A stretch of 25,501 bases of DNA from a virus: positions 1 to 25,501 of IMG/VR virus record IMGVR_UViG_3300011114_000013. One strand, given 5' to 3'. The translations under genes and the position numbers were made by a program. Shown here one piece after another: positions 6,486 through 21,624 of the stretch (within the stretch, counting starts at the first letter, position 1; every line of letters starts with the position of its first letter). The notes below the pieces were generated by a model. The model made no database searches. It had not been told where the DNA came from and worked only from the letters and a program-made list of their open reading frames with translations.

Positions 6486-8603
6486 TCACTCAAATTGTTG
6501 CGTTGCTGGATTCCATGTTAATCCACCACCAGTAGTTTGCTGCTGTTGCGCTTTCTTGATTGCTTTAAGCGCAGGGCCGCCACGCACTTCCATCGCCAAC
6601 TCAGCAGACTTGCGTGCTTGCACCTTTTGCTTAATGACTTCTGGCTTGTCATCGACTTGCGGGAAGTACTTCTTAATTTCTTTTTCCATCTCATCTGTGC
6701 CAATAACAGCGCCAGACTCAGCGCGCAAGTTGGCAGTCACCCAATTCTCTTGTGCCTGACGGTATTGTTGGCGGCCAGAAGACTCGCTGACGTTCGCAAT
6801 TCCAGTAGTTAATCCTGCTGACGGTGTAGCACGCATGATGGCCTGATATCTATTAGGCGCACCAAATGCATTCTCCAACGTAAGTGGTTTGCCATTTGCA
6901 TCAACCATTGGCTGCTGAGTCATTGGATTAAGTACAGGTTGATTAAATATTTGCGATGCCTGATTCATCCGTAAAGTAAATCCAGCAGATTTAGCCTGAT
7001 CTTCAGTAGCTGAACTCTTCCCTGCCAATTGCTCACCGCCAGCACCCATAACTGGAATCACTGGCATACCAGGCGCTTTAGGTACATACACAAATCCATC
7101 AGCAGTTTCAACACGGTCATATTGACCACGCTGAAATTCTGATTCGCTTAGATTCAGACGTTTCAATGCAATACCTAAATTTGCCTTTTCAATTTTCAGT
7201 CTTGCCTCTTCGCCTGGTGACATACCTGTCAGATATGTAGCGTTTGCAGGAATCTTACTCTTGTCAACGAATTGAATCTTGCCACCAAGATTGACTTGTA
7301 CCAACTCGCGCGGTAAGCCATAACCTTCAACAGACTTGATTGTTCCATCGTCATATCTCTGTACAAGCACAGGCTGACCATTTATGTCTGTAACCTCTTT
7401 CATTTCACCAAGAGGCTTAGCAGCTGGCGCTTCTGCTGCTGGTATTTCAATTCTTCCACCGGTCTTAGTCCGCTGGTAAAACTTTCCTCCTGATCCGCGA
7501 TAAGGCTCACCAATTACTTCTGGCGTAGGCTTAATAGTCTTCGCAAGTTCTTGATATGCTTTTGCTTTTACTGGATCAGAGACTGAATACAACTGAGATA
7601 ACTTCATGTATCTGTCATAGGTAGCATCTTGCTGGCTTGGCGCTTCACCAGGCATAACTTGACCAATCATTGCAGCACGTGCGACAGTAGGGCCAGCAGG
7701 CAATTCTTCTGATACTGGTGCAGATATGGCTTGCTGTGGCGTAATCTGAGTGCCTGCTGGTGCTGTACCAGTATCACCCATCATGATTCTCTGCGCGGCA
7801 TCTTGCATTGCCATATTTCTCTTGTACTCATCCAACTTCTGTCGCATCATCAGCTGCTGGATAGCACCCTGCTGCGCCTGCTGATAACCGGCTGTGCCAG
7901 CCTCAAACGCACCGCCCAATGCCTCACCTAAAGAGATTGGCGTTGTTCTTACCCCGCTTGATTTAAGCAGCGAGGCAGCGGCCTGCATCATGGCCCGATT
8001 CTGCATAGCCTTTTGCTGTTGCGGTGACAAATAGTCTTCCATGCCATCACCTCCACCGCCAAACAATAGGCCGCCAAGGTTATCCATAAAGCTAGTGTTT
8101 GTTTGTGCATCTGCCATTTTGGGACTCACATAAGGTTCAATTGGAATTGGTGAATTTGCAATGCGCTGATCAATTGCTTGTATTCTTCTATCTCGATCAC
8201 TGACGTAAGGTTTTATTGCCATTGGTGCATCTGCAATGCGTTGTTCAATTGCTTGTCTTGTTTTATCGCTTTCACTGACGTAAGGTTCAGTATCCAATAC
8301 AACTCCACCTCCAAAGGTTTGAGGCGTAAATTCTGCTTGATTGATTGGTGACGTTTGCCGAGGAAAAAGCAAAGGTGAATAATCACTAGGATTTATACGA
8401 CTAGGATTTAAATTACCTTTATATGATGGAATTCTTGATTCACCTTCAATCATGTGCCAAGGATAAATTGGATTTAAAACATCCATATATCTTGATGGAT
8501 CTCTTAATTCATCATATGGATAATGACCAGTTCTTGCAAATTCATCTTGCATGAATTTACTGGTTAACAAATCATTTTCTTCATTTGTCATGCTTAACCT
8601 CAT
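6486..8603 (-). CDS. Large virion protein, probable internal/ejection protein, 705 aa
   Basis: The ATG at 8603 overlaps the previous TGA. The ATG at 8591 (fifth codon) has a better AGG-type ribosome binding site and may be used. Residues 106-160 hold two full copies and one partial copy of a 25-residue repeat starting E/K-PYVS. From about 163 (MADAQTNTSFMDNLGG) the sequence becomes Gln/Met/Ala-rich and helical, like ejection proteins, with a QQQT-rich C-terminus. The first 165 residues are encoded by distinctly AT-rich DNA and look like an added domain. No enzymatic motif seen. Confidence 0.75.
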   Translation of the reverse strand: MRLSMTNEENDLLTSKFMQDEFARTGHYPYDELRDPSRYMDVLNPIYPWHMIEGESRIPSYKGNLNPSRINPSDYSPLLFPRQTSPINQAEFTPQTFGGGVVLDTEPYVSESDKTRQAIEQRIADAPMAIKPYVSDRDRRIQAIDQRIANSPIPIEPYVSPKMADAQTNTSFMDNLGGLLFGGGGDGMEDYLSPQQQKAMQNRAMMQAAASLLKSSGVRTTPISLGEALGGAFEAGTAGYQQAQQGAIQQLMMRQKLDEYKRNMAMQDAAQRIMMGDTGTAPAGTQITPQQAISAPVSEELPAGPTVARAAMIGQVMPGEAPSQQDATYDRYMKLSQLYSVSDPVKAKAYQELAKTIKPTPEVIGEPYRGSGGKFYQRTKTGGRIEIPAAEAPAAKPLGEMKEVTDINGQPVLVQRYDDGTIKSVEGYGLPRELVQVNLGGKIQFVDKSKIPANATYLTGMSPGEEARLKIEKANLGIALKRLNLSESEFQRGQYDRVETADGFVYVPKAPGMPVIPVMGAGGEQLAGKSSATEDQAKSAGFTLRMNQASQIFNQPVLNPMTQQPMVDANGKPLTLENAFGAPNRYQAIMRATPSAGLTTGIANVSESSGRQQYRQAQENWVTANLRAESGAVIGTDEMEKEIKKYFPQVDDKPEVIKQKVQARKSAELAMEVRGGPALKAIKKAQQQQTTGGGLTWNPATQQFE
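8139..8288 (-). repeat. Two tandem 75-bp repeats inside the 705-aa virion protein
   Basis: Two in-frame 25-residue units, each starting PYVS at its second residue and containing QAI-E/D-QRIA, are encoded by diverged direct DNA repeats (8214-8288 and 8139-8213). A partial third unit follows (EPYVSPKMAD). Confidence 0.8.
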
Positions 8604-8944
8604 CCAAGTAAGCCGGTCATGCCGTACATCTTCATCAATTGCGCGTAGGTCAGATTGCTACCGCCTGGAAGCTGCGGCATCTGCATACCAGCAGACTTCT
8701 CTTGCCCAGCACCCAGCAGAGACATTGCCAGACCAGCATTCATGTTTGGTTTTGCAGCAGGCATCTGTCCAAAGGACTCAGGCGCTTTGATGCCAAGGCC
8801 ATCACCGTAATCAGATGACGGCATAGTCATGTCAAGGTTTGCGTTCTTTACGCCACCATACAGGTCAAAGCCTTCACCCATCATCGGCTTACGCAAACCG
8901 CTGGCAGGATTGTTTTTTCGCAGTAATTCTAGATAGTCGGTCAT
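8600..8944 (-). CDS. Small virion-module protein, 114 aa
   Basis: ATG 8944 overlaps the previous TGA (ATGA), and its own TGA overlaps the next ATG, so it is coupled on both sides. The protein is rich in Met, Gly, Pro and Asn with few predicted structural elements. It begins MTDYLELLRKNNPASGL and ends with an amphipathic YAQLMKMYGMTGLLG. That GLLG-type ending resembles the C-terminus of the gene before it. Likely a small structural or chaperone-like component of the ejection complex; family not named. Confidence 0.65.
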   Translation of the reverse strand: MTDYLELLRKNNPASGLRKPMMGEGFDLYGGVKNANLDMTMPSSDYGDGLGIKAPESFGQMPAAKPNMNAGLAMSLLGAGQEKSAGMQMPQLPGGSNLTYAQLMKMYGMTGLLG

Positions 8945-9675
8945 CCGAATAATCCTAAAAGTCCACCAGCAGCTGCACCCAATGGGTTACCACCGCTGAG
9001 TTGGAATCCAGCCAATGCGCCTCCCAATGCGCCAGCACCGACATTGCGCGAGGTCGGCTGAGTCATTGTCTGACCAATGTTTGCAGGCTGCGCTGACAGT
9101 GCCGCCTGAGTGATACCAAGACGCTGCAACTCAAGGTTTCTAGCCGCATCCAGCTGCTGCTGTGCAAATGACTGTCGGCCTAAGCCTAAGTTCATGGCAG
9201 TCTGATAGCCTTGCTGATTCATTTGACGTGCGGCCTGCGCCAGCGCAGCTGATTGCTGATAACCACCAGAACGCAACTGAGCAGCTGTTCTGGCCGCAGT
9301 CTTTAGCGCAGCCTCATTGGTGAGTGCAGACTGCACGCCTTGACGTGAACCGCCAAAGGCTTTTGCGCCAGTAGCCTGCTGTGCATCGCTCAGAGCCTGC
9401 ATCTGTCGCGCCTCTTCAATATCCCTTAGCGATGTCTGTACAACATCCTGCTCAAAAGGATTCTGAAACTTCATGATGTCTTGAGCGCCAAATGGATTCA
9501 TGCTGGCTTCGTAGGACGCTTTTTCAGCCGCCTGATACATAGGATCAAAGCCAGCAAACTCTTGTACTCCAAGATTACCGGCTGCTGTTTCAGCTTTACC
9601 TACTTGCTCTAAGTACTTGGCCTTGACATCCTCGTCAATGCTTGTTGAAGTTGTTTGTGAACCGCCTTTAGACAT
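8941..9675 (-). CDS. Phage structural protein, internal virion type, 244 aa
   Basis: ATG 9675 follows AAGGGG with a 6-base gap. The protein is strongly helical and Gln/Ala-rich. Residues about 72-125 contain NPFEQDVVQTSLRDIEEARQ and GAKAFGGSRQGVQSAL, a signature I recognise from many podoviral virion proteins encoded next to ejection proteins. The C-terminus is a Gly/Ala/Leu-rich hydrophobic tail (GGALAGFQLSGGNPLGAAAG), which may insert into membrane. A role in the internal core or DNA ejection is inferred from family context. Confidence 0.8.
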   Translation of the reverse strand: MSKGGSQTTSTSIDEDVKAKYLEQVGKAETAAGNLGVQEFAGFDPMYQAAEKASYEASMNPFGAQDIMKFQNPFEQDVVQTSLRDIEEARQMQALSDAQQATGAKAFGGSRQGVQSALTNEAALKTAARTAAQLRSGGYQQSAALAQAARQMNQQGYQTAMNLGLGRQSFAQQQLDAARNLELQRLGITQAALSAQPANIGQTMTQPTSRNVGAGALGGALAGFQLSGGNPLGAAAGGLLGLFG

Positions 9676-9685
9676 ACATTACCCC

Positions 9686-10621
9686 TTAAACCGTTTGACC
9701 GTTTTCACGAATGAATTGTGTATCAGTGCCAAGCACATTAAACACCTTCATCCAAAATTTTTCCACTGGCTTGAACAGCCAGCCATGCTTATTCTGACCA
9801 TAGTGCCACTTTCCATAGGACACCAGTGGATCAGCAAATGTCTTTGCCACCATGAATTTGAACAGCTTTGACTCACGCATCAGTGGAACAAACACCTCGG
9901 CCAGCTTGTAGTAACCGCGCTTGTTCCTGTCTGTAATCTTCTCATCGCGGTATCGGCGCACCACGGTGTCCATAGTGCCGTCACCGTAGCGTGCCTCCAG
10001 CATGATGAAACAACAGCCAGCGCCGCTACCAGCGCCACCGGCTCCACCCGATGCCCCACCGCCGTCACCGCCAGAAGCAGAAGCGCCACCACCGTCACCA
10101 CTGGATGATGCGCCGCCGTCACCTCCACGGCCACCACCGCCAGCACTCATGCCACCCTCGCCAGAGCCTGAGTTAGATGCGGATTGACCTGACGGTCCAG
10201 TTGCAGTCATTCCCATGCCAGACATACCGCTAGCGGCAGTACCGCCAAAGCCAACACCAGTACCTGGTGCGCCAGGTGATGTACCAATTCCAATTCCTAA
10301 CCCATTCGGTCCAAGCAATGCTTGCAATACCTGTATTGCAATTGGCGGCTGTGACAGAAATGCCATCACCGCCTTACCAATAGACTCGCCAGTATTTCCA
10401 AGGCTTTGCGCGTTGGACTCGCCATTTGCCATCTGTGCGCCAAATGCCGCATCACTCATTGGGCCAGCACCACCGCCAGTAGGTAAATTTGATGATCTTG
10501 GATCAACAGCGAGTAAGTTAGCAGGCTGCTGAATTACATCCTGTTTCATTGCTTGTATAGTGGCAGCCGGATTTGATATATCCAGTAAGCCATTTGGTAA
10601 TTGTTTGTATGTGTACGCCAT
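9686..10621 (-). CDS. CFI-box C-terminal domain protein with long Gly/Ser linker, 311 aa
   Basis: ATG 10621 follows directly after the preceding stop. Residues 1-105 form a moderately conserved-looking N-domain. Residues about 108-202 are almost pure Gly, Ser and Ala (a flexible linker). From 203 the sequence reads CCFIMLEARYGDGTMDTVV, then RRYRDE and helices to the end. This matches the CFI-box C-terminal domain (usual core CFIATAAYG followed by LRRFRDE), found at the C-termini of many bacterial proteins of unknown function. The context is tail and ejection genes, so it is probably virion-associated. Function unknown. Confidence 0.75.
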   Translation of the reverse strand: MAYTYKQLPNGLLDISNPAATIQAMKQDVIQQPANLLAVDPRSSNLPTGGGAGPMSDAAFGAQMANGESNAQSLGNTGESIGKAVMAFLSQPPIAIQVLQALLGPNGLGIGIGTSPGAPGTGVGFGGTAASGMSGMGMTATGPSGQSASNSGSGEGGMSAGGGGRGGDGGASSSGDGGGASASGGDGGGASGGAGGAGSGAGCCFIMLEARYGDGTMDTVVRRYRDEKITDRNKRGYYKLAEVFVPLMRESKLFKFMVAKTFADPLVSYGKWHYGQNKHGWLFKPVEKFWMKVFNVLGTDTQFIRENGQTV

Positions 10622-10990: not shown

Positions 10991-11097
10991 CGCTTACCCG
11001 CCGCCACTGCCTCAATCCGGTTGACACCAACCCGCCAATCTTCCAGCACGGCACCGGTGTACCTGATCTTCACCTGACGGCCAGAGAACCGGAGGGA
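10987..11097 (-). other. Displaced C-terminal segment of the tail nozzle-like gene
   Basis: In the +1 frame relative to the 476-residue ORF, this stretch encodes SLRFSGRQVKIRYTG, then LEDWRVGVNRIE and a final AGKR. It has the look of the conserved end of this tail family (R-F-S/T-G-R-Q and D-W-R-x-G). It ends in a TGA that overlaps the TTG start of the next gene, as expected for the native gene boundary. It is joined to the upstream frame by removing one base near 11094-11104. Confidence 0.7.
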
Positions 11098-12442
11098 TTG
11101 CGGCTGAGTATGGCCCATAGGTAAACTCAGTGTCCATCGGATAAAAGCGCGTCTTGAATGAAATTTGAACTTCGCCCAGCGTCTGCTCATCTGGTATCAC
11201 CTGACGCACAGACATGATGTTGTCGCCGTTTCCAATCTCCATCGGGCCAGACTCAGCGTAGACAGAGCTAGAGTCATAGGCATATCCCACTTCATGCTCG
11301 TAGATGTAGCCTGATGAATCCACCATCAAAGGATTGATAAACACGCCTCGATCTGTGCCAGCAGTACGCCCCATCACGCCAATATTCCAATGGTTTTCAC
11401 GGTAGTTGTAGGTGACATAGGAGTCAACTTCATTGCTGGAACTTGATGGATAGAACCACCAAACTTCACCATATTTTGAATTATGTACAGCGTAAACCTT
11501 GCTGGCCTGGTTGTAGTTCAGATTCTGGAAGACGTAGTCAGAGACATCGCAAGGCATAGGCTTGACATAACCGTCAAATATCCAGAATCCTGATCGACTC
11601 ATCCACATCGCGGCACTATCAATGGCGGCCACAGCCTGCGCTGATATCACACCGCAGCCTGAGCCTACACGTTCAAAGGCATAGACATAGGGTAGGCCGA
11701 TATAGCTGGCAGTATGCACGTCAACGTCAGTAAACAGCAAATTGATGCCTCTGACGCGCTTTCCGCACTTCAGTGAGCCACTGCTGTTGATCTCAAAGTC
11801 ACCGGCCTGATTGGTCGCTAATGCTGTCCATACCGTGTTGTTCTCCTGATCTGACCACTTCACCAGACGCGGGTTGCTAGAGGCACCCAGCGCAAACAGG
11901 AATCTTTCAGCCGTTGCATGAACTGCGGCGCAACCAGTTGGCGCATTAGTGATGACTGCGGCCAGCGTAGGCGTTGTGAATCCCAGCTGCCACTCGTATA
12001 ACTTGCCGTCATAGTTGGAGCAGCCAACTAAATATTCACCCCATGCGTCAAGGCTCCATGTCGTTGCAGGCGTAAATGTGTCAGATGCTGGACGCTGGAT
12101 ACCATATGCGGCTGTTCCATAGGTGTTATAGCCATAACCGGTGATGACAGTAGCGTCAGCAATACCAGAAGTAAATCCGGTTGGCGTAATGTCTTTTACA
12201 ACAGCAGTTGTGCCACTCATGACGTATAGCTTTGAATGCGTACCGCCATTGTCACGCCATGTCAGCAACCCACGGCATTTACCGGTAATGGCTGTCTCTG
12301 TCTTCTTGCGCCAGCCGCCAATAGGACGTAGCGTGTTTTCGTACCAGCGCACAAGGTTAGCGTCATACCAGCGTCCGGCAGACTGATACTCAGTACCATT
12401 GCGGTACACGCCTGGTGGAATTTTTAAGGGTATGAGTGCCAT
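11012..12442 (-). CDS. Tail nozzle / DNA-stabilisation-like protein, C-terminus frameshifted, 476 aa
   Basis: ATG 12442 opens with MALIPLKIPPGVYRNGTEYQ, AGRWYDANLVRW and RPIGGWRKK, a start typical of a podoviral tail family comparable to the P22 gp10 / T7 gp12 nozzle proteins. The body is beta-rich with recurring Trp and Gly, fitting a propeller-like fold. The frame stays convincing to about residue 448 (TYGPYSAA), then turns into an unrelated-looking tail (PSGEDQVHRCRAG). The expected ending lies in the next frame at 10987-11097. A real product ending at 10987 would be about 484 residues. It is therefore either damaged or carries an indel error. Confidence 0.8.
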   Translation of the reverse strand: MALIPLKIPPGVYRNGTEYQSAGRWYDANLVRWYENTLRPIGGWRKKTETAITGKCRGLLTWRDNGGTHSKLYVMSGTTAVVKDITPTGFTSGIADATVITGYGYNTYGTAAYGIQRPASDTFTPATTWSLDAWGEYLVGCSNYDGKLYEWQLGFTTPTLAAVITNAPTGCAAVHATAERFLFALGASSNPRLVKWSDQENNTVWTALATNQAGDFEINSSGSLKCGKRVRGINLLFTDVDVHTASYIGLPYVYAFERVGSGCGVISAQAVAAIDSAAMWMSRSGFWIFDGYVKPMPCDVSDYVFQNLNYNQASKVYAVHNSKYGEVWWFYPSSSSNEVDSYVTYNYRENHWNIGVMGRTAGTDRGVFINPLMVDSSGYIYEHEVGYAYDSSSVYAESGPMEIGNGDNIMSVRQVIPDEQTLGEVQISFKTRFYPMDTEFTYGPYSAAIPPVLWPSGEDQVHRCRAGRLAGWCQPD

Positions 12443-13091: not shown

Positions 13092-13516
13092 GCAAATGCT
13101 CTTGTGCCGGTCTTGTCAATAATCAAAGCCATAGCGCGGGGATCGGTATCCTCAGTATTAGGAATACTGATATGAGTCCAGCGGTCAAACTCACGAATGA
13201 CCTGATCGTATTCCAGATCAGAGCCAATGATGGCCTTAACGACTTCATCTGGTGTCATGCCTGGCACGCGAATATCGGCGGCACAGCCACGTCTATGTTG
13301 TGATTTGTCAGATGATTTCACTGCATCATTAACGGCTTTTGATCTGAATGCAGAATTCACAATAATCGGCTTACCGCCAAGCACAACCTTGACCTGTTCC
13401 AAGAATTCAGCCAAGCGGTACAGATTGGCTAATTCCTCTTCGTTTGGCAAATTGTCAAACTCGCGGTGATCGGTATGGGTTAATTCTTCAAGGGTAAAAC
13501 TTGGTGATAGATTCAT
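12986..13516 (-). CDS. M15-family peptidase endolysin, 176 aa
   Basis: ATG 13516 overlaps the stop of the Rz-like gene (ATGA). The product is a single-domain peptidoglycan-degrading metallopeptidase (D-Ala-D-Ala carboxypeptidase / L,D-endopeptidase type). The zinc motif S-x-H-x-x-G-x-A-x-D is present at residues 72-81 (SQHRRGCAAD, ligands H74 and D81), with the third ligand H115 in RWTHIS, and the SAFRS motif at 55-59. The natural end of such proteins is near ALIIDKTGTRAFA (residue 142). The last 34 residues look out of frame and overlap the fibre gene, so a stop appears to be missing. Confidence 0.85.
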   Translation of the reverse strand: MNLSPSFTLEELTHTDHREFDNLPNEEELANLYRLAEFLEQVKVVLGGKPIIVNSAFRSKAVNDAVKSSDKSQHRRGCAADIRVPGMTPDEVVKAIIGSDLEYDQVIREFDRWTHISIPNTEDTDPRAMALIIDKTGTRAFASRHQRSLILARLVRPMTRGFSLSHSVRLTPTSAS

Positions 13517-13986
13517 TTCATGTTCCTCATTTGTTCGTAGGTTTGGATGCAGGCGTTGAGCTTTCGGATGGCGGCATCTCCTTCGGCGGCGATGGCGACA
13601 AGATCGTCAGCAGTCTTTCGGTCAAGTTCGGCTGATGCTGTTCCGCTGTGATCTCCACCGGCAATGGCGGTATCTGTGGTGGCTGATACGGCGCACTCGG
13701 CGGCTTTGACAGGAATGAACAGCTTGCGTTCACCGCTAGCAATATCAGCACGCAGCTTTGTCTCTTTAACCCTTGCAGCATTATTCGCCTTTCGTAATGT
13801 GTCACCGTAACTCTGCACGACTTGCACCATGGCCTTCTCAGTCTCCCTAGCCTTGGCGTTCAGTGCGGCAATCTCCAGCTGCTGGCGCTGATACTCAGCG
13901 TCCTTACCCTTGGAGTATCCACCGGCACCGGCAGCGCCAATGGCAATCAGGATACTCAAAATCACCCAAGGGTTAAGCAGGCTCAT
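13513..13986 (-). CDS. Rz-like i-spanin, 157 aa
   Basis: ATG 13986 overlaps the holin-candidate stop and its TGA overlaps the endolysin ATG. It has one N-terminal membrane helix (about 7-23, WVILSILIAIGAAGAGG), a long charged periplasmic helix (about 28-75), and a C-terminal part with two cysteines (C97 and C146). This is the layout of inner-membrane spanins, which pair with an outer-membrane lipoprotein to fuse the two membranes in the last step of lysis. A second reading frame inside it encodes the partner. Confidence 0.8.
   Translation of the reverse strand: MSLLNPWVILSILIAIGAAGAGGYSKGKDAEYQRQQLEIAALNAKARETEKAMVQVVQSYGDTLRKANNAARVKETKLRADIASGERKLFIPVKAAECAVSATTDTAIAGGDHSGTASAELDRKTADDLVAIAAEGDAAIRKLNACIQTYEQMRNMK
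13527..13781 (-). CDS. Rz1-like o-spanin nested in the Rz-like gene, 84 aa
   Basis: ATG 13781 is chosen over GTG 13805 because it places the hydrophobic signal close to the N-terminus. The protein has a basic start, a hydrophobic segment (CVLILLAVNASC, C21 as likely lipidated cysteine) and then a strongly proline-rich stretch (KPPSAPYQPPQIPPLP). The lipobox is imperfect, with Asn at -3. Small size, proline content and complete embedding in another frame of the Rz-like gene are diagnostic of Rz1 outer-membrane spanin subunits. This also indicates a Gram-negative host. Confidence 0.75.
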   Translation of the reverse strand: MLQGLKRQSCVLILLAVNASCSFLSKPPSAPYQPPQIPPLPVEITAEQHQPNLTERLLTILSPSPPKEMPPSESSTPASKPTNK

Positions 13987-20172: not shown

Positions 20173-21624
20173 TTAAGAAGTGATCAAGTCTGCTGCCAGA
20201 CCATGAGCATTTTCTGCTAACACCTTATGTCCAAATTCAATCAAAAGCATTCGTTTTTCGGCATCGCCTGTCTTCGCAAGTTCTACTTGCTGGTAAGGAC
20301 GCAGGACAGTCATCTTTGCGTACTCAGGATCAATGATCCAACCATCACGCTCGCGCTGGAAGCGGTTAGCGATGACGGCCACGTTGCCAAAGTCGCTGAC
20401 GTAGATGTCAACTGCACCGATCAACACGGCAGGCTTTTCGCCACCGTTGATGTTGAAACGTGAAGATGCAATGCCAGAGAAACCGGAAACGCGCTGCTTG
20501 TTGACAGGGCCAACCATCAGGATTTTCGGAGTACCGCCAGCAGACCATACTTTCTGAATCACATTCTTGAGAATGGTTTCAGTAAAGGTACGCACGTTGC
20601 CGTCAGTACGCGCACTGTTTGGCAGTGTGGTGTAGCTTGGGTCAGTGCCGTTGGTTTGCTTGTCGGTGTTGGTCTTGACAAACGCGCCCAAAGAGGCAGT
20701 CACGCGAGCAGTGGTAGTGTTGCCGGCAACAGCAATACCGCCATTCAACATGATGAATTCTTGGTCACGTTTCAGTTCAGAGCCGCGCTTGGCGATCTGG
20801 TATGCCAGTTCAGAACGGCGGCCAGCCTTGTTGACCACTTCCTCAGTGTTCGACAAGACAATAGTCTTGCGTGAAATCTGAGCATAGTTAGTCAAGCGGA
20901 CGGTTGCTGTCACTGAATCAAATGTGCCAACGTCATCACCCTCAAGCTGTGCGTTAGCAGCAGCGTCAAATCCAGCTTTCTGGCCGAATTGAACAAGCAT
21001 GGCTTTTTCAGCCGCAGCCTTCTTGGAGTCTTTCCACTCGGGAATAGCCGCCACTAAAGCCTCTTGCTCATGCTGCAACACCATCTGGTGCTGCTGCATT
21101 TGTTCCTGTTGCGACAACTGAGACAGGCGCTGCTTTTCGCTTTGAATAGCCGCGTTTTTCTCTTGGTTTTCTCGCATCACCTCGCGCTGCCGTACCCATT
21201 CAATGGGGTCTTCTTGGTAAAGACGTTCCCAATCAATATTCGGCTGCGTTGCCTGCTGAACCTGAGCCTCTAAAGCTCCTAACAAATGAGCGTATTGCTC
21301 GCGCTCGGCACGCACTGCCTGCAACTCTGCCTCTGCGTGCTTTCGCACCTCGGCAATTTGCTGCGTTTTGCGTGTGTAATCCTGAGTCCTTGAGTATCCT
21401 TTTTGGAGTTCATCCAGCGTCACCTCGACTTCTTTACCGTCAACCTTGACGGTGAAGACTTGTGGCTGTTCTTCCTCTTCAGAATTCTCATCTTCTTCGG
21501 ATTGTTCGGAATCAGTTTCATTGCCATCCGCGTCTGCATCGGTCAGCAACTCATCTTCTCCCGCCGCGCCCTCTTCGGGCAACTGCGACTCGCCTGAATC
21601 CTCTTGTCCCTCATCGGGGAGCAT
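20173..21624 (-). CDS. Scaffold-major capsid protein fusion, 483 aa
   Basis: Residues 1-219 read as a phage scaffolding protein: an acidic low-complexity N-terminus, VDGKEVEVTLDELQKGYSRT, long Gln/Glu helices and AAIPEWKDSKKAAAEKAM. From about 221 the sequence switches directly into the SU10-type major capsid family (formerly DUF5309): NAQLEGDDVGTFDS, YAQISRKTIVLS, EEVVNKAGRRSELAYQIAKR, KILMVGP and a complete C-terminus. The capsid N-arm and first strands (roughly 60 residues) and the scaffold C-terminus are missing. This implies a deletion that kept frame, or an assembly error. ATG 21624 has AGGA too close, so the start is uncertain. Confidence 0.85.
   Translation of the reverse strand: MLPDEGQEDSGESQLPEEGAAGEDELLTDADADGNETDSEQSEEDENSEEEEQPQVFTVKVDGKEVEVTLDELQKGYSRTQDYTRKTQQIAEVRKHAEAELQAVRAEREQYAHLLGALEAQVQQATQPNIDWERLYQEDPIEWVRQREVMRENQEKNAAIQSEKQRLSQLSQQEQMQQHQMVLQHEQEALVAAIPEWKDSKKAAAEKAMLVQFGQKAGFDAAANAQLEGDDVGTFDSVTATVRLTNYAQISRKTIVLSNTEEVVNKAGRRSELAYQIAKRGSELKRDQEFIMLNGGIAVAGNTTTARVTASLGAFVKTNTDKQTNGTDPSYTTLPNSARTDGNVRTFTETILKNVIQKVWSAGGTPKILMVGPVNKQRVSGFSGIASSRFNINGGEKPAVLIGAVDIYVSDFGNVAVIANRFQRERDGWIIDPEYAKMTVLRPYQQVELAKTGDAEKRMLLIEFGHKVLAENAHGLAADLITS

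Follow-up and report, generated by a model that had tools for sequence, protein, structure and literature searches.

The window (the whole stretch of viral DNA analyzed, 25,501 nucleotides) contains a minus-strand ORF, hereafter the carrier, in which an N-terminal part and a Gly/Ser/Ala-rich tether precede a C-terminal domain beginning with CCFIMLEARYG (Table 1). The plus strand at the same positions is full of stops, and the ORF is also present in contigs L001-L012. The preliminary description had read the tether as about 95 residues of nearly pure Gly, Ser and Ala; a stretch rich in these residues was recovered over that length, near-purity being confined to the last ~50 residues, with a density that rises towards the C-terminal end. 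The 109 residues of the domain read CCFIMLEARYGDGTMDTVVRRYRDE...FIRENGQTV. The whole protein has at most one weak hydrophobic segment, at residue 85 (highest 19-residue Kyte-Doolittle mean of 1.48); no transmembrane helix was predicted for the C-terminal domain, and its hydrophobic moments are only moderate. The window protein also matched phrog_815 (8.8e-6), which we judged to be an effect of Gly-rich composition because only 1 of 46 carriers gave this match and neither half of the protein did so alone.

Table 1. Coordinates of the carrier, its parts and the surrounding genes in the window.
Feature	Position	Strand	Remarks
Virion structural protein	11012-12442	-	phrog_3287, E 1.9e-73
GNAT-like protein, 122 aa	10622-10990	-	phrog_22172; ends directly before the carrier start
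Carrier ORF, 311 aa	9686-10621	-	ATG start at 10621, stop 9686-9688
N-terminal part, residues 1-107	10301-10621	-	Varies among relatives; without known family
Gly/Ser/Ala-rich tether, residues 108-202	10016-10300	-	75% G/S/A
Phage CFI-type domain, residues 203-311, Cys pair 203/204	9689-10015	-	Found conserved across 80+34 viral loci; distantly matches bacterial CFI-boxes
Next gene, 244 aa, ejection-type, boxless here	8941-9675	-	Homologues in related phages with CWVA box
Small cluster protein	8600-8944	-	
Candidate ejection-cluster protein, 705 aa	6486-8603	-	By position; without family match
Candidate ejection-cluster protein, 613 aa	4636-6477	-	By position; without convincing family match
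Protein at cluster end, 525 aa	3056-4633	-	

The carrier had been placed between a GNAT-like protein and ejection proteins. The upstream protein is indeed GNAT-like, albeit weakly and with no Pfam match of its own, and the downstream proteins are unannotated and of the virion-cluster type; "ejection" is for them a reasonable, still unproven label; the two larger genes after the carrier match no known ejection family. In other phages, carriers are preceded by genes for phrog_3287 virion structural proteins (10 of 74 proteins), phrog_511 internal virion proteins (5), head-tail adaptors (4) and portal proteins, and followed by genes for tape measure, transglycosylase, lytic tail, DNA transfer and DarB-like antirestriction proteins or, in HMO-2011-type phages, the major head protein. 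Several phages have their carriers beside portal and head genes, not beside large ejection genes, and some carriers themselves match LysM domains, tape-measure or transglycosylase families. In HMO-2011-type phages, the 3' end of the carrier gene is shared with an overlapping gene for a SAM-dependent methyltransferase (positions 12314-13009 of L082 and 4163-4855 of L071).

In described ejection clusters, a small gp14-like gene precedes the larger gp15- and gp16-like genes (PMC8954989), and the window protein is likewise small and may have a comparable place, first in a putative ejection cluster with larger proteins after it. It differs from the T7 gp14-type internal virion proteins in having no sequence match to them and in its hydrophobicity profile, which does not offer several membrane helices, whereas four or five are predicted for T7 gp14-like factors (PMC8954989). 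A search of 20 contigs for T7 gp13 (PF11090) gave no match, the control being empty as well.

Two other loci of the window deserve mention. The minus-strand ORF at 20173-21624 (483 aa) joins in frame a scaffold-like acidic N-terminal half and an SU10-type major capsid protein, of which the first ~55 profile positions are missing; the two parts are separate genes in relatives such as L220 and L170, with about 320 aa, and the fusion may stem from a deletion or from a join made during assembly. On the same strand, the overlapping ORFs at 13513-13986 and 13527-13805 resemble an Rz/Rz1 spanin pair, the second having a lipoprotein-like start.

Distribution and conservation of the CCFI domain

The CCFI domain is widespread in uncultured phages. 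By scanning IMG/VR with the domain we obtained 159 stretches encoding it, 80 of which were kept as loci with 70-100% identity across all 109 residues, and the variant CCFIFLEA was found in 34 further stretches. The recurrence of the domain in these 80 loci and the saturation of synonymous sites (see below) confirmed that the ORF with its Gly/Ser linker and C-terminal CCFIMLEARYG domain is real; the pairing of linker and domain, for which a search of related phages had been proposed, recurs in many of them. Among 50,697 phage records, the class was found only in the Roseobacter phages CRP-13 (gp55) and CRP-345 (gp62), whose C-terminal domains follow a Ser- or Gly-rich tract and are 71-76% identical to that of the window. 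These two carriers differ from ours in their length (~1200 aa) and surroundings, lying beside the portal gene and being followed by an overlapping methyltransferase gene. No true relative of the class was recovered from 84,980 bacterial and archaeal species with two patterns able to catch only close relatives; the single genome match (L084) is a chance ORF. We found no Pfam or PHROGs model covering the phage CCFI domain.

In every one of the 114 carriers whose stop could be read, the domain is at the C-terminus. The N-terminal parts of the carriers fell into 27 groups without BLAST similarity between groups, a count in which low-complexity linkers may have merged members of the largest group and incomplete records may have inflated the small ones. 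BLAST comparisons showed, at 58 of 115 loci, no similarity between the other genes around the box and any gene of the window, and yet the ungapped M-class boxes of these 58 loci are 73-82% identical to the window box. Overall, boxes on unrelated carriers are 70-82% identical. When the window box was compared with boxes on unrelated carriers, synonymous sites were saturated (pS 0.76-1.03) while amino-acid identity was 70-79%, indicating an old divergence under strong purifying selection and no recent spread. The invariant positions in an alignment of 43 members are C1, C2, F3, I4, L6, E7, A8, R20, R23, G34, Y35, P44, M46, P63 and W88.

AlphaFold2 models of the phage domain are helical, with moderate confidence (mean pLDDT 78-79). 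Sequence and fold searches of the PDB with this domain returned no usable relative, and we found no solved structure of a bacterial CFI-box; beyond CRP-13 itself, fold matches in BFVD had TM scores of 0.73 and 0.61 at ~19% identity. The box is predicted to be a small helical domain, with the invariant Cys pair at its start and a flexible Gly/Ser tether joining it to the rest of the carrier.

Relation to CFI-boxes and a second class of phage boxes

The preliminary description had assigned the C-terminal domain to the CFI-box. The NCBIfam model NF041770 (CFI_box_CTERM), with its curated cut-off of 40 bits, matched neither the window protein nor its domain, and the best sibling shown against it reached 13 bits; since the model fails to reach it, the window protein is not a member by the family's own cut-off. 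The assignment nevertheless held for the phage family as a distant homology. NF041770 was matched by more of the phage domains than any other family (22 of the 43, with a best value of 1.8e-4), and hhalign aligned the profile of the 43 phage domains with that of 14 bacterial and archaeal boxes over domain residues 2-60 (E 8.5e-6, probability 83%), with a score of 34.1; none of 150 column-shuffled phage profiles scored above 20.8. A bacterial CFI-box HMM run over 9168 viral ORFs likewise placed many carriers near the top, weakly.

In the alignments, phage and bacterial boxes have in common, in the same order, a Cys-Phe-Ile start, YG, RxxRD, Gly and Pro; the likeness to NF041770 extends to the C-terminal position, the aromatic-Gly motif and a later Gly, Tyr and Pro. 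The phage domain differs in lacking the CFIATA signature (CFIMLEA in the window and CFIFLEA in others, thus LEA for the bacterial ATA), in one extra residue before YG, in an extra Cys before CFI, in being ~30-40 residues longer and in its occurrence, the CCFI domain being found only in phage contigs and NF041770 in bacteria and archaea. Among cellular proteins, related boxes occur on cold-shock, TPR, CAP and restriction-like proteins. Matches of the phage domain to SDR/FabG were short and far below the cut-off and were discarded.

Some of the matches concern other proteins. The top ones of the bacterial HMM (L048, L074, L038 and L067) covered the FRD half only, without the Cys motif; at these four loci, proteins encoded 3' of the carrier contain a segment, FRD...YYxxSP, that resembles the latter half of a bacterial CFI-box (1e-7 to 2e-5). 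A CYIATAVYG box occurs on a zinc-ribbon/TPR-like protein of the Clostridioides phage pCD1602_4 (L091, 30732-30926), the sole record of a bacterial-type box in the phage collection.

The search of viral ORFs with the bacterial HMM also brought up a protein with the motif CWVATAVY (L114). Scanning with CWVAREVYG then gave at least 120 stretches, and among isolates this CWVA class was found only in HMO-2011 (gp25). The CWVA domains, which have no family name, resemble the CCFI domain in being C-terminal Cys domains of ejection-cluster proteins, and they show a clear homology to bacterial CFI-boxes, which they match better than the CCFI class does (E 3.1e-10, probability 97%, full-length alignment); the box was C-terminal in 115 of 115 cases among the matches listed. 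They differ in their size (~65 residues), in a single Cys accompanied by W and in the Gly/Ala-rich, more hydrophobic segments preceding them. No direct profile-profile match was obtained between the CCFI and CWVA classes, and the bacterial family forms the bridge between them.

The ejection-type gene that follows the carrier is boxless in the window. It shares homology with the N-terminal region of 13 CWVA carriers, the best match (E 1e-30) being to that of L207; no match was obtained between it and the N-terminal parts of CCFI carriers. In four contigs (L220, L226, L191 and L189), a phrog_3287 gene, a GNAT-like gene, a gene X and a homologue of the ejection-type gene with a CWVA box follow one another in an order mirroring that of the window, the box being on the second gene after the GNAT-like one and not on X; in L207, the box-bearing homologue comes immediately after the GNAT-like gene. 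The X proteins have no recognisable homology to the window carrier. Contigs bearing boxes of both the CCFI and the CWVA class numbered 1 of 32 and 0 of 30 among the records tested, a near-exclusion that is suggestive and may be partly due to sampling because the records are mostly fragments. These observations suggest that each ejection-gene cluster has a single CFI-type box, whose place has shifted between neighboring genes. In L189, L170 and L257-L268, the protein encoded between the GNAT-like and CWVA-bearing genes ends, after a flexible tract, in another Cys domain (VCTAMNKMG...); that this one is a CFI-box was not demonstrable (E 0.001, probability 21%).

That the CCFI domain could be unrelated to the CFI-box, with Cys and FRD motifs shared by convergence, seems to us very improbable. 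Such a reading would account for the failure of the window sequence against NF041770, for LEA in the place of ATA and the additional residue before YG, and for the missing direct match between CCFI and CWVA profiles, but the top rank of NF041770 for the domain set, the clearly exceeded shuffle null and the match of the CWVA class, located on homologues of the neighboring gene, to bacterial boxes all argue against it. From the sequence comparisons, the CCFI domain is supported, as a distant homologue, as a new phage branch of the known CFI-box superfamily.

Possible roles of the box

The interpretation that we tentatively prefer, as one that is quite possible, is that the carrier belongs to a podophage-like ejection cluster, that it enters the particle together with the internal or ejection proteins and that its box is a docking tag. 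From gene order we infer that the carrier would be present in the virion. The idea of the preliminary description that virions carry the domain has indirect support in the LysM or tape-measure matches of some carriers, in the virion genes around it and in the CFI-type box that the neighboring protein bears in related phages; we found no virion proteomics for any carrier. The flexible tether would give the box reach and, after ejection, the box would bind a conserved partner of the cell, located at the host envelope or inside it, and help to position the ejected complex; an action of the domain at or across the envelope, as proposed in the preliminary description, is plausible. The carrier may act in trans with the ejection-type protein of the next gene, itself box-bearing in related phages. 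The partner should be constant because the box is constant while the carriers change, and the related boxes on cellular proteins suggest that it is cellular. As a box can be borne by one or the other of two neighboring genes, their products may well become parts of a single complex. Some bacterial boxes are on proteins that are probably cytosolic and others on probably secreted ones, so a single shared partner is not assured.

The main alternative is that the box is a virion-assembly tag that attaches the carrier to the portal, core or scaffold while the procapsid is being built, with no host role. The placement in a virion and ejection gene cluster and the alternation of the box between two neighboring genes of this cluster would suit such a tag, and in the T7 head gp14 connects the portal barrel with the ring formed by gp15 (PMC11784390). 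We nonetheless consider it rather unlikely, as related boxes occur on bacterial and archaeal proteins outside phages and as the phage box keeps its 70-82% identity amid unrelated virion genes, which would demand the same constancy of a phage-specific partner. Bacterial boxes on cytosolic-looking proteins and the variable N-terminal part of the carrier could alternatively point to a late, moron-like, non-virion protein of the host cytoplasm, present in the cluster by chance; with the box fused to ejection-type, LysM or tape-measure-like carriers in other phages, and with a recurrent position within the cluster, this is unlikely. There is similarly little to be expected from a box modified by the product of an adjacent enzyme gene, for instance acylated at Cys or Lys to become a membrane-interface anchor. 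The Cys pair is invariant, a GNAT-like gene lies directly upstream in the window and its relatives, a GNAT-type gene overlaps the carrier start in cluster 2 phages (e.g., L105, L114 and L116) and, in CRP-13 and L071, the end of the carrier gene is overlapped by a methyltransferase gene; against this, the GNAT assignment in the window is weak, many carriers adjoin neither enzyme, and the domain combines the absence of a predicted transmembrane helix with only moderate hydrophobic moments, which makes a modified anchor quite unlikely.

Extending the docking tag to all these phages, CFI-type boxes might be general, movable C-terminal docking tags of podophage ejection machines, usually one per cluster on either adjacent gene, with a partner shared with the bacterial CFI-box proteins; in this broad form we hold the proposal to be doubtful. 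If true, the shared cellular partner would explain both an orphan bacterial domain and one step of phage DNA entry. We found no mention of the CFI-box in the literature searched. The connection of this orphan box with an ejection-type cluster of abundant uncultured phages, and of a second class with the neighboring gene, makes this domain the subject of a testable hypothesis, for which three cultured phages, CRP-13, CRP-345 and HMO-2011, offer test systems.
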